Source: Chryseobacterium sp. FH1
Lineage (GTDB): Bacteria; Bacteroidota; Bacteroidia; Flavobacteriales; Weeksellaceae
Length of the DNA: 64,000 nt
Reading direction: 5' to 3'
Assembly (NCBI RefSeq): GCF_000735135.1
Contig: NZ_JPLZ01000006.1
Coordinates: forward strand, 1,736,001 to 1,800,000
The translations under genes and the position numbers were made by a program. Under the pieces are notes generated by a model, which was not told where the DNA came from, searched no databases, and was given only the letters and a program-made list of their open reading frames with translations. How positions within the stretch are numbered: the first letter of the stretch is position 1; each line of letters starts with the position of its first letter. Below, in pieces: positions 15,832 to 59,582 of the stretch.

Positions 15832-15932
15832 GCTATTTCCCGCTTTCCGTTGCAATCTTTTTTGCAGACGATTTCCCTCTCAATAGAACTTTCAGTAAAC
15901 GCAAAAAAGGATTTCCACTGCAATCGGGGCTA
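15832..15932. repeat. Dispersed flavobacterial repeat A, copy 1
   Basis: Element running from AGGAGCTATTTCCCGC to GCAATCGGGGCTA. Its arms carry AATCTTTTTTGC and GCAAAAAAGGATT, which can pair. A second, diverged copy lies at 36430-36545 and shares the segments AATCTTTTTTGCAGACGA and GCAAAAAAGGATTTCC. A truncated head (TTAGGAGCTAT) lies just upstream at about 15782. Similar elements are abundant between genes in Flavobacteriia. Confidence 0.7.
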
Positions 15933-15994
15933 GGGATTTTGTTTGTAAAAGAAGCTTTCCACTAAAAAAGAAGATTGTCAATCCTAACCCGAAA

Positions 15995-56849: not shown

Positions 56850-57413
56850 ATGAAAACAAATATATTCTTTACTGCAGACCATCATTTCGGTCACGCCAAT
56901 ATTATAAAATTCTCAGAAAGGTCTTTTGAGTCAATCGAGGAAATGAATGAAGAACTCATCAAACGATGGAATGAGAAAATCGGTAAGGATGATACCGTCT
57001 ATCATTTGGGCGATATGAGTTTGGGAAAACCTGATTTCACCAAGGAGATTCTGAATCAAGTCAATGGGAAAATCCATCTGATAAAAGGCAATCACGAATA
57101 TGCCGCACTTCGCGTTCCCGAAAGATTCGAGTGGATCAAGGATTATCACGAGTTGTATGTCGAAGATGAAGATGCGAATCTGGGCAAGCAAAAAATTACG
57201 CTTTTGCATTATGCAATGCGGACCTGGAATGGCTCACATCACGGAACTTGGCAACTCTACGGCCATTCGCACGGTACTTTGCCAGATGATGAATTAAGTT
57301 TGAGTATCGATGTCGGCGTTGATTGCCATAATTTTTATCCGATTTCTTATGAAGAAGTTAAGGAAATTATGAAATGTAAAAAGTGGACTCCGCCATTTGT
57401 ACCGAGACATTAA
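56850..57413 (+). CDS. Calcineurin-like metallophosphoesterase
   Basis: 187-residue phosphoesterase with all metal-binding motifs: DHHFGHAN (DxH, about 10-17), GDMSLG, GNHE and GHSHG. The single-domain layout and the DHHFGH start match small MPE-family proteins that occur in phage and in nucleic-acid-related clusters. It is flanked on both sides by RNA-like sequence and followed by a slipin-like SPFH gene. By context it may process RNA ends, for example 2',3'-cyclic phosphates. That is inference and no substrate is known. Confidence 0.88.
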   Translation: MKTNIFFTADHHFGHANIIKFSERSFESIEEMNEELIKRWNEKIGKDDTVYHLGDMSLGKPDFTKEILNQVNGKIHLIKGNHEYAALRVPERFEWIKDYHELYVEDEDANLGKQKITLLHYAMRTWNGSHHGTWQLYGHSHGTLPDDELSLSIDVGVDCHNFYPISYEEVKEIMKCKKWTPPFVPRH

Positions 57414-57494
57414 TTAAATATTTAAAATAATTTCATCTACGCAAATTGATTGCGCACTACCGCTTTTACTTTGCATCATCAATTAGAAATAATG

Positions 57495-57518
57495 CTAAAA
57501 TCCAGCAACGGATTTTAG
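57495..57518 (+). other. Perfect 9-bp hairpin
   Basis: CTAAAATCC, loop AGCAAC, GGATTTTAG. There is no T-run, so it is not a typical terminator. It would lie near the 5' end of a transcript started at the TTACTTTGCA box. Confidence 0.5.
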
Positions 57519-57644
57519 TCAAAATATCAGACAGGTCACGTTGAGCGTTTCGGTATATCGCCATTGCAGAAGGGTTTGTTGAGAAACATTAGCCATTTCT
57601 GTTCAGCTTGATTTGAAGGTTTTGAAGTTTGCCAAAAAACTTCC

Positions 57645-57720
57645 CATTTTCTATGTATGAAGGTTCGAATCCTTCCTGTTTTTGAACAGTAGCTAAACGG
57701 TATAGCAATAGATTTTTATG
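57645..57720 (+). ncRNA. tRNA-mimic RNA module 1 (YrlA/Y RNA-like, permuted tRNA order)
   Basis: Elements in order: T-arm GAAGG-TTCGAAT-CCTTC (57659-57675) with a canonical T-loop; a capped acceptor-like hairpin CTGTT-TTTG-AACAG (57676-57689); the two linker bases TA; D-arm GCTA-AACGGTA-TAGC (57692-57706). The unit is closed by TCTAT (57650-57654) with ATAGA (57708-57712), and CAT/ATG beyond a T-rich internal loop. No anticodon arm. The 3' half of a tRNA thus precedes the 5' half, as in the tRNA-like domain of bacterial Y RNAs. Confidence 0.55.
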
Positions 57721-57721
57721 C

Positions 57722-57794
57722 GAGGGTTCGATTCCCTCTCTCAATTTAGGTTTGAGATAGCTCAGTTGGTCAGAGCCCTACGCTTTTAACGTAG
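57722..57794 (+). ncRNA. tRNA-mimic RNA module 2 with a Lys(UUU)-type anticodon arm, permuted order
   Basis: T-arm GAGGG-TTCGATT-CCCTC (57722-57738); acceptor-like stem TCTCAA (57739-57744) with TTGAGA (57752-57757), loop TTTAGGT; TA; D-arm GCTC-AGTTGGTCA-GAGC (57760-57776) with the conserved GG and flanking A; C; anticodon-type arm CTACG-CTTTTAA-CGTAG (57778-57794) with anticodon TTT. All arms pair perfectly. A normal tRNA order fails because no T-arm follows the anticodon arm. A third partial acceptor-like ACTCAAA occurs at 57809-57815. Confidence 0.55.
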
Positions 57795-58402
57795 GTTTTT
57801 GGAAATAGACTCAAAATCTGTATCCGACAGTCGAGTTTTTAAATGTTTTCTCATTAATAAAAACATTTACCACAGGAAAGTTCTGAAGTTTTTTCGGTTG
57901 TTAAATCAACAATTTGAAGAAGCTTGCAGGAAAAGATGATTTTGGAAAGACGAAGTTTTAGTTAGATAAACAATCGATTGTTGAATCTATATTTTTAAAC
58001 TGAGATTTTAAAGTGAATAAATAGTTTTCTGCTCTTTAGCATTAATAAAGTTGACACCAAAAATCTGAGAGTTAGAAATCAAATTCAATATCAGGTTTTG
58101 AAGCAAATGAAGTTTTTCTGAACCGCTTTTCTTCCGCCATTTTTTGGATGAGAGAATTTCAGAATTTCCTTTTTTAATTAGAAATTTATAGTATATGAAA
58201 AAAAATAAACGCAAAGATTTAATTTAAAAACTGCACAAATTCAAGCGAGCAAAGACGGATGAATTCTTCATTGATGAAGCTAATAAATGAATTTTTTGAA
58301 ATTCCTGAAATGCATTTAATAATTTCACGCTTCATCAAATCAATTTATTGATTTCTCTTCGCAGGCCTTAATTAAAGAGAGCTTAATTCAGTCTTTGCGT
58401 TT

Positions 58403-58410
58403 TAATTTTG
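58403..58410 (+). promoter_or_regulatory. -7 element of the SPFH gene
   Basis: TAATTTTG followed by CAGC matches TAnnTTTG. It lies 75 bp before the ATG. No -33 element is clear. Confidence 0.5.
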
Positions 58411-58484
58411 CAGCGTAAAAAAAATATTAGTAAGAAATTTCATGCAATAAAATAAAAAAAAATAACACTAAAAAATAAAATGTG

Positions 58485-59582
58485 ATGATAAGAAATGTAC
58501 AAATTAAAGCATACCAAATCGGTTTGGTCTTCAAAAACCGAAACTTGACCGAAATTTTAAAAGAAGGTAACTACTGGATTTTCGGAAACAAATCTGTAGA
58601 GATTTTTGAAATGAAAACTCAGTTTAAAGCAGGAGAAGATTTGAATCTTTTGTTGAAAAATGAAAACTTTGCTTCAATGATTGAAGTCGTAGAAGTGAAA
58701 GACGGCGAAATCGTTTTAGTTTACGAAAACGAAATTTTCAAAGAAGTTTTGAATGTTGGTCAATACGCTTTCTGGAAAGGAATTTTGAACAGAGAATTTC
58801 AAAAAGTGGATTTGACGAAAGTGGAGATTACGGAGAATATTTCTAGAACAATTTTGGAGAATATCAAGTTGAAAACATTTGTCAGAAAGTTTGTCATCAC
58901 CAATCAATACAAAAGTTTGTTGTTGATTGATGGTAAATTGACCCAGGTTTTGGAAGCTGGAACTTACTACTTTTGGAACAACGAAACTTCTGTCGAAGTC
59001 AAAGCCATCGATACGAGAATGCAACAAATGGAAATTGCAGGACAAGAACTTTTGACGAAAGATAAAGCGATGTTGCGAATCAATTTTTACGTGCGTTACC
59101 AAGTGGAAAACGTCGTAAAAGCCTTGATGAACAACAAAGAATACGACAAGCAATTGTATATTTTGATGCAGTTGGCGTTGCGGGAATTCGTTGGAGCCTT
59201 GACTTTGGATGAATTGTTGGTGAAGAAAGATTCTGTCGGCAAGGAAATTTTGGAAAACCTTGGTGCAAAAGCGGACGACTTAGGCTTGAAAGCTTCTGAT
59301 GCGGGAATTCGAGATGTAATTTTGACTGGCGAAATGAAAGAAATCATGAACCAAGTCTTGATTGCCGAGAAAAAAGCACAGGCCAACAGCATTATGCGTC
59401 GTGAAGAAACGGCTTCCACAAGAAGTTTGCTCAACACCGCAAAATTGATGGAGGAAAACGATACATTATGGAAATTAAAAGAAATGGAATACATGGAGAA
59501 AATTGCCGATAAAATCGGTGATATCACAGTTTCCGGAAACAGCAACATCGTTTCTCAGTTGAAGGATATTTTCGCAAGATAG
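58485..59582 (+). CDS. Slipin-like SPFH/Band-7 domain protein
   Basis: 365 residues from the ATG at 58485 (MIRNVQIK); a GTG one codon upstream is less likely. There is no N-terminal membrane helix. An N-terminal part with two similar small beta units (about 5-130) precedes the Band-7 core (about 140-290, including GQELLTKDKAMLRINFYVRYQVENV and the coupled helix ALREFVGALTLDELL). The C-terminal helix (VLIAEKKAQANSIMRREETASTRS) is typical of slipins. In many bacteria cytosolic slipin-like proteins accompany Ro60/TROVE and RtcB RNA-repair genes. Here the neighbours are tRNA mimics and a phosphoesterase. Confidence 0.85.
   Translation: MIRNVQIKAYQIGLVFKNRNLTEILKEGNYWIFGNKSVEIFEMKTQFKAGEDLNLLLKNENFASMIEVVEVKDGEIVLVYENEIFKEVLNVGQYAFWKGILNREFQKVDLTKVEITENISRTILENIKLKTFVRKFVITNQYKSLLLIDGKLTQVLEAGTYYFWNNETSVEVKAIDTRMQQMEIAGQELLTKDKAMLRINFYVRYQVENVVKALMNNKEYDKQLYILMQLALREFVGALTLDELLVKKDSVGKEILENLGAKADDLGLKASDAGIRDVILTGEMKEIMNQVLIAEKKAQANSIMRREETASTRSLLNTAKLMEENDTLWKLKEMEYMEKIADKIGDITVSGNSNIVSQLKDIFAR

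Follow-up and report, generated by a model that had tools for sequence, protein, structure and literature searches.

A candidate RNA-repair regulon RNA with two permuted tRNA mimics, coupled to slipin genes and independent of Ro60, in Chryseobacterium and its relatives

Introduction

The tRNA-like domain of the bacterial Y RNA YrlA is described as a circularly permuted mimic of tRNA (PMC11472068, PMC8394870), and YrlA itself as a tether joining Rsr to PNPase (PMC8394870). In Salmonella, the rsr-yrlBA-rtcBA operon places such an RNA under the same control as RtcB. Hughes et al. suggested that the tRNA-like domain of YrlA might inhibit nucleases, and since no YrlA fragments were detected when tRNAs were cut, YrlA is not a substrate of the Salmonella tRNA-cutting nuclease (PMC7790460). 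A further system with related components is the TrcR regulon of Anabaena, in which a slipin, rtcB and a back-up tRNA operon are reported to rise together without the repressor (PMC10272220).

Here we describe a locus in Chryseobacterium sp. FH1, in a window of 64,000 nucleotides that comprises the whole stretch of DNA analysed (contig NZ_JPLZ01000006.1, positions 1,736,001 to 1,800,000). An initial annotation had noted two tandem tRNA mimics beside a slipin-like gene; the locus is larger than the span so annotated and includes a 5′ domain, a 3′ pseudoknot, an operator, a promoter, coupling to the slipin gene and a link to an RNA-repair regulon (Table 1). Like YrlA (RF02553; structure 6CU1), the proposed RNA carries on a neck a circularly permuted mimic made up of T-arm, capped acceptor and D-arm, and, again like YrlA, it is tied to RNA-repair genes. 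It differs in having two mimics, one of them with an anticodon arm, another 5′ domain, a 3′ pseudoknot and the slipin coupling, in scoring below the YrlA gathering threshold, and in belonging to a genome without Ro60. No description of this RNA was found in the open-access literature searched. Its identity as a Ro60-independent tRNA-mimic RNA of an RNA-repair regulon is well supported, and it probably serves as a bait or docking site; its mechanism and transcription we infer.

Table 1. Features of the tRNA-mimic RNA locus and of the repair genes sharing its operator. Positions are those of the window unless another contig or locus is named.
Feature	Position	Strand	Basis or remark
Metallophosphoesterase gene	56850..57413	+	Pfam Metallophos_2; directly 5′ of the RNA
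Palindromic operator TACGCAAATTGATTGCGCA	57438..57456	+	Sole exact occurrence in the genome
Promoter box TACTTTGC, of the type TAnnTTTG, which we take to be the Bacteroidota promoter consensus	57467..57474	+	The RNA and the two repair-regulon sites have the same TTTTACTTTGCATCATCAA
Proposed structured non-coding RNA (392 nt)	57481..57872	+	Homologues; fold z = -3.65; 5′ end approximate, 3′ end possibly further downstream
5′ hairpin, 10 bp	57494..57519	+	Minimum-energy fold
5′ domain: long closing helix, two enclosed helices and following hairpin (57624..57643)	57523..57649	+	34-sequence alignment
tRNA mimic 1: neck TCTAT/ATAGA, T-arm, capped acceptor, D-arm; without anticodon arm; YrlA-like topology	57650..57712	+	
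Mimic 1 T-arm GAAGG-TTCGAAT-CCTTC	57659..57675		
Mimic 1 capped stem CTGTT/AACAG	57676..57680 with 57685..57689		
Mimic 1 TA, then D-arm	57690..57691, 57692..57706		
tRNA mimic 2: T-arm, capped acceptor, D-arm, anticodon arm with loop CTTTTAA	57722..57795	+	
Mimic 2 T-arm GAGGG-TTCGATT-CCCTC	57722..57738		
Mimic 2 capped stem TCTCAA/TTGAGA	57739..57744 with 57752..57757		
Mimic 2 TA, then D-arm	57758..57759, 57760..57776		
Mimic 2 anticodon arm CCTACG-CTTTTAA-CGTAGG (Lys UUU)	57777..57795		
Further anticodon-like arm, core ATAGA-CTCAAAA-TCTGT	57801..57825	+	Kept in most Chryseobacterium-group loci; in minimum-energy fold
H-type pseudoknot: GAG/CTC and AAATGTTTT/AAAACATTT	57833..57868	+	Comparison of 75 loci
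ACCA directly 3′ of the pseudoknot	57869..57872	+	
Slipin (SPFH/Band 7) gene	58482..59582	+	Pfam Band_7 E 2.5e-26; stomatin relatives in PDB; synteny
RtcB, RlaP, PrrC-family-like AAA_13 and second RlaP genes behind the shared operator	L161 102-5858 = own genome, C6 ~60.1-65.9 kb		

Results and Discussion

Two permuted tRNA mimics

Both modules have the permuted order of T-arm, capped acceptor, TA and D-arm that the initial annotation had given them, at the same place; the anticodon arm that it had read in the second module is present, and the slipin-like neighbour is a genuine member of its family. Judged by its arms, mimic 2 reads as a tRNA that has been circularly permuted, with the break at the variable region. 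The acceptor strands of both mimics are joined by a short loop, and neither therefore has a free acceptor end. The neck of mimic 1 takes the same form as in the window in 27 of 75 loci, the window included, and other versions elsewhere, as read with a permissive scan without a control.

The D-arm of mimic 2 appears by eye to be Leu-like in L050, L053, L063, L064 and L106 and Lys-like in relatives, which suggests that tRNA parts have been exchanged. The segment 9361-9458 of L047, called as tRNA-Ser by ARAGORN, looks by eye like a chain of tRNA-like arms (Leu-like, Ile-like), and this locus seems to hold extra modules.

Homologous loci and capped-stem controls

Homologous loci were sought using the downstream slipin gene as the anchor, which gave a match in 34 of 59 relatives, mostly as weak Band_7 matches. 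A scan of a species-genome collection confirmed at least 509 relatives, and the best 80 of these, near-duplicates included (e.g. L082, L127), were combined with the window, L045 and L047 to give 83 loci. Counting as a module any T-arm outside called tRNAs followed by a capped hairpin with a score of at least 7, two or more modules are present in 75 of the 83 loci (73 with exactly two, 2 with three), one in six and none in two; in four of the six single-module loci (L083, L084, L088, L102) the second module lies inside an ARAGORN call.

Capped hairpins scoring at least 7 follow 158 of the 167 T-arms outside called tRNAs, and 150 of these 158 score at least 9. When strands were swapped between loci, 25.9% reached 7 and 10.7% reached 9, and real tRNAs of the same loci (n = 232) gave 24.6% and 9.9% (23/232), respectively. 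The T-arms inside ARAGORN calls reach 7 in 10 of 32 cases, some of these calls (those in the four loci just named) being mimics themselves. The 158 hairpins comprise 98 different stem sequences. Pairing of the two acceptor-like stems, on which the initial annotation had built its argument, thus exceeds chance across relatives by both the swap and the real-tRNA controls. Pairing of an acceptor in canonical order, scored as a 5′ strand pairing 40-105 nt downstream, was found in 20 of 75 loci (expected 30.1) and 43 of 75 (expected 43.8) and is not above chance. Permuted modules, not intact canonical tRNAs, occupy this place in the loci examined.

Comparison with Rfam models

No canonical cloverleaf with a paired acceptor was found: ARAGORN calls no tRNA in the window, canonical-order pairing stays at chance in the 75 loci, and the Rfam tRNA model passes marginally (57751-57816, 29.8 bits against 29) as the only match at gathering thresholds in the RNA region. 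With relaxed limits, over 471 bases, the YrlA model RF02553 aligned both modules at positions 30-81 of its 114 (29.7 and 28.2 bits, E 1.7e-4 and 4.7e-4; gathering score 69), which bears out their proposed likeness to the YrlA tRNA-like domain. The outer stem of YrlA, made of its 5′ and 3′ ends and binding Ro60/Rsr, is unmatched in the window, where the alignments stop at model positions 30 and 81. All of 20 further RNA loci gave a YrlA match at E ≤ 1, several at E 0.05-0.3 only, with best scores per locus of 26.0-49.1 bits and none at 69. The alignment in L145 extends over the neck (model 17-92), and that in L143 is stretched over model 1-114 with several positions unpaired.

The YrlA model also matches the junction of two real tRNAs in L129 with 33.6 bits, and the Rfam tRNA model reaches at least 29 bits inside the RNA in seven of the 20 loci (L134, L135, L136, L141, L143, L147, L148). 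Because the tRNA model and the L129 junction also match, Rfam scores alone are no proof of permutation, and because they are ambiguous the case for permutation rests on the complementarity controls. The best of the tRNA matches (45.0 bits, L143) reads the D-arm and anticodon arm of mimic 2 and the third arm in canonical order; the 3′ half may carry a second, canonical-order likeness to tRNA. Neither in the window nor in the 20 loci does any one Rfam family span the RNA as a whole. Because the tRNA domain is common with YrlA and the other testable defining features failed, we regard this as a new variant of tRNA-mimic RNA and not as a Y RNA.

Distribution and coupling to slipin

A covariance model, R1, was built from the 5′ domain, the first T-arm and the first capped hairpin. 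Among 395 Flavobacteriales genomes it matched 81 at E ≤ 0.001, of which 32 strongly (119.9-177.2 bits), and in all 32 strong genomes a slipin of this family lies 0.4-0.8 kb downstream on the same strand, albeit with a frame that looks broken in G160. Conversely, R1 matches directly upstream of the slipin gene in 39 of 44 slipin genomes, more weakly in seven of them (29.6-48 bits); R1 found no match in the slipin genomes G094, G143, G193 and G415, and G039 has two modules by the T-arm and capped-hairpin scan. Matches in 42 of the 395 genomes (23.1-34.6 bits) were treated as chance, and none of the 42 has this slipin. A search of 395 Bacteroidota genomes matched 14 of them at E ≤ 1e-6, one (G699) outside Flavobacteriales, with a model trained mainly on Flavobacteriales. 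The RNA 3′ region and the slipin gene are 231-634 nt apart in the 75 loci.

Ro60 is distributed differently. TROVE is present in 36 of the 395 Flavobacteriales genomes and in six of the 32 with a strong RNA match, and it has no match in the genome of the window. The RNA goes with slipin and not with Ro60. A link of this RNA to Ro60, which the initial annotation had named as the partner of YrlA, is accordingly not supported, with TROVE absent from this genome and from 26 of 32 RNA genomes, and with no part of the outer YrlA stem matched.

A mobile origin was considered and set aside: blastn, which sees fairly similar DNA only, gave no match to the 392 bases among 50,697 phage and 72,556 plasmid records.

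The 5′ domain and overall fold

A conserved domain of ~130 nt lies upstream of module 1. In an alignment of 34 sequences it has 35 pairs in 5 helices, T-arm 1 included, and 26 of the 35 are changed on both sides; 96.5% of cells are paired, and no measure was reached in 500 shuffles. Slid versions of the alignment pair at 41-50%, a control in which the structure is favoured by having been taken from the same alignment. Covariation in homologues, proposed earlier as a check, is thus strong, and the conserved modules together with the covarying 5′ domain point to a structured RNA maintained across relatives.

The 392-nt stretch folds at a z-score (Table 1) as low as which none of 100 shuffles came. 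Its minimum-energy fold reproduces module 2 with each of its four arms, as well as the third arm, the 5′ hairpin and the long stem of the pseudoknot; since the arms of module 1, the closing helix of the 5′ domain and the GAG/CTC stem are missing from it, these elements rest on species comparison.

Anticodon-like arms and the 3′ pseudoknot

An anticodon-like hairpin (5 bp, 7-nt loop) follows module 2 in 67 of 75 loci, compared with 6.9 on average, and at most 16, in 200 shuffles. U33 is present in 65 of the 67 loops and a purine at position 37 in 60, with 26 different triplets between them; among 42 distinct stem-plus-loop sequences, U33 is found in 40. These figures come from an unbiased scan, which replaced an earlier one favouring U33, and strict homology between the arms of Flavobacterium loci and those of Chryseobacterium loci is uncertain. 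Most Chryseobacterium-group loci have the further arm as well, with the loop CTCAAAA or similar.

The H-type pseudoknot is found in 63 of 75 loci, and in 5-11 in five shuffles of all 75, by a stricter scan that replaced first scans that were too permissive. Its second stem occurs in 41 versions, and swapped pairings work in 31 of 315 cases. CCA lies within 6 nt of the pseudoknot in 32 of the 63 loci; a looser CCA scan gave 26 of 75 loci versus 0-5 in six shuffles.

Operator, RNA-repair regulon and neighbouring genes

The operator pattern matches its own genome exactly once, at the RNA, and at four further sites with two mismatches; allowing up to 3 mismatches yields 35 matches, versus 5 for a reversed control pattern. 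Two of the two-mismatch copies, at C6:65981 and C6:66456, are each followed by the identical TTTTACTTTGCATCATCAA and precede RtcB and a 133-aa protein; the other two, C9:3835 and C6:748010, fall within reading frames and were not considered further. Beyond RtcB stand RlaP, AAA_13 and RlaP in a row, with a WYL-WCX gene 4.5 kb away. Of the 81 loci that have one module or more, 57 carry a close version of the operator upstream of the RNA. The operator and promoter that the RNA has in common with the RtcB/RlaP sites suggest that it is a component of an RNA-repair regulon.

The AAA_13 protein matches PDC-S06 of PADLOC (603.7 bits) and, weakly, PrrC (41.4 bits); a PDB search with it found nothing. 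The AAA_13 family contains PrrC, and an anticodon nuclease may possibly stand beside the repair enzymes.

Neighbouring genes were scored within ~6.5 kb in the best 80 of at least 509 loci, with clusters named from one representative each, the metallophosphoesterase cluster assigned by likeness to the protein of the window, and some loci cut by contig ends. The counts are RNase_T exonuclease 37, metallophosphoesterase 26, Rnl2-type ligase 17, cREC 15, RtcB 14, RLIG1-like 10, TROVE 8, WYL 8 and RlaP 7. Real tRNA genes lie upstream of the RNA on the same strand in 50 of these best 80 loci. ARAGORN made 246 calls there, most often for Asp, Leu(UAG), Phe, Pro, Tyr, Asn, His, Gln, Arg and Lys; Gly was called 0 times and Ala and Val once each. 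The biased anticodon set of these arrays (50 of L049-L128) is reminiscent of back-up tRNA operons.

The arrangement has parallels in both of the regulons introduced above. In the Anabaena TrcR regulon, a slipin and rtcB are under one control; the repressor there is an RHH protein and a tRNA-mimic RNA is unmentioned in the portion of the paper considered (PMC10272220). The Salmonella operon shares with our locus a tRNA-mimic RNA controlled jointly with RtcB, but its regulator is RtcR (CARF), where here a WYL-WCX gene lies by the shared operator, and it has Rsr and RtcA where the genome of the window has RlaP, AAA_13 and slipin (PMC7790460).

Possible roles of the RNA

We regard it as nearly certain, from sequence comparison, that the locus specifies a non-coding RNA of at least ~390 nt belonging to a Bacteroidota RNA-repair regulon. 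Because the RNA is common to many relatives and tied to RNA-repair genes, it may act as a bait or docking site when tRNAs are attacked. The reading we prefer, a repair-regulon RNA whose capped mimics engage proteins of the tRNA elbow and anticodon loop, has as a whole a probability of roughly 0.45. Cutting of tRNAs would lead the WYL-WCX regulator to free the shared operator, and the RNA would then be produced alongside the repair factors. Its capped mimics would be false tRNAs that cannot be charged, and would engage proteins that recognise the elbow and the anticodon loop of tRNA: mainly anticodon nucleases, as a bait, and perhaps also repair or decay enzymes; the 5′ domain would tie the RNA to a partner, possibly a slipin scaffold. 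Transcription, control by WYL and all protein contacts in this scheme are what we infer.

That bait is the main role of the RNA is a tentative proposal, held at somewhat below even odds. The kept tRNA shape, the unchargeable acceptor and a loop of fixed frame and free triplet would together fit a bait for anticodon-loop enzymes. PrrC targets tRNA-Lys, and the Lys UUU loop of the window counts in favour, as do the PADLOC matches of the AAA_13 protein and the nuclease inhibition suggested for YrlA. Against bait we count the lack of an anticodon arm in mimic 1, loops whose triplets match no usual tRNA, e.g. UCA (4) and AAA (2), the link of AAA_13 to PrrC, which is at family level only, and the Salmonella finding that YrlA is no substrate of the tRNA-cutting nuclease there. 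By analogy with YrlA, mimic 1 without its anticodon arm would fit the docking of an elbow-binding protein, and docking and bait may both apply.

A more elaborate form of the bait reading we consider doubtful. It would make this a Ro60-independent, double-mimic class of evolvable baits, in which the tRNA shape and the U33/purine-37 frame are kept and the triplet, and sometimes whole D-arm or acceptor parts, are swapped to follow the threatening anticodon nucleases, possibly the PrrC-type one of the regulon, and in which the pseudoknotted 3′ domain, often with CCA at its end, mimics an acceptor arm.

If the preferred reading, of mimics engaging tRNA-reading proteins, is true, the permuted tRNA module of Y RNAs works outside Ro60 particles, duplicated, with an anticodon arm and as a companion of slipin. 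The role of tRNA mimicry in RNA repair (bait, sensor or docking), which the Salmonella study leaves open for YrlA, would become testable, and the little-understood slipin family would be linked to tRNA damage.

The RNA could instead be a Ro60-independent tether resembling Y RNAs, in which the mimics dock a tRNA-binding effector (PNPase, RtcB, an RNA ligase or tRNA modification enzymes) and the 5′ domain binds another protein, so as to assemble a repair or decay complex, perhaps at a slipin scaffold. We see this as a live possibility short of probable: the topology of mimic 1, neck included, is that of YrlA, repair enzymes and exonucleases are nearby, slipin always lies downstream in the strong genomes, and YrlA has been described as linking Rsr to PNPase (PMC8394870), but an anticodon arm of varying triplet is not needed for a tether.

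It is unlikely that the RNA is a cis-acting leader or feedback sensor, by which a repair protein or regulator binding the tRNA-like leader controls slipin expression. Threonyl-tRNA synthetase controls its own leader by binding it, and the RNA is always upstream of slipin and on the same strand in the 32 strong genomes; however, hundreds of nucleotides (231-634 in the 75 loci) separate the RNA 3′ region from slipin, and two whole mimics with two further domains exceed the needs of such leaders.

Less likely again is a tRNA-like structure of canonical order in the 3′ half (D-arm, anticodon arm, third arm as T-arm, pseudoknotted acceptor and CCA), maybe processed or charged. The L143 tRNA match and the frequency of pseudoknot and nearby CCA speak for it, and tRNA-like structures of plant viruses (TYMV type) have an anticodon-like arm and a pseudoknotted acceptor ending in CCA. 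The RNA resembles these in that a pseudoknot, often with CCA, follows the arm, but it differs in arm order and CCA is missing in 31 of the 63 pseudoknot loci; moreover, the third arm is absent from many Flavobacterium loci and its loop is anticodon-like and not a T-loop.

A true YrlA-family Y RNA binding Ro60 is scarcely credible. The YrlA model does match and a TROVE gene lies within 6.5 kb in eight of the best 80 of at least 509 loci, but with the outer stem, the score (best 49.1 bits against 69 in the window and 20 other loci) and Ro60 all failing, this reading is refuted here, barring an unrecognised Ro60 in this genome. Decay of an ordinary tRNA array, for which the real tRNA genes further upstream and the likeness by eye of the arms to tRNA-Lys and tRNA-Leu parts might speak, is ruled out by the swap and real-tRNA controls, which reveal rebuilt stems lacking in real tRNAs, by the same order in 75 of 83 loci, by the covarying 5′ domain and by synteny.

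Other features of the locus

Some 200-250 bp between the RNA and slipin, at ~58208-58461, are missing from the related loci L002, L003 and L007. The segment has, by eye, the inverted ends ACGCAAAGA ... TCTTTGCGT and is probably a small insertion of the MITE type. The window also holds a strong match to the Rfam Flavo-1 RNA at 15832-15935 (-), with 74.9 bits, and weak Flavo-1 matches (30.0-36.0 bits; gathering 42) lie 3′ of the RNA in five of the 20 loci (L131, L137, L141, L147, L148).
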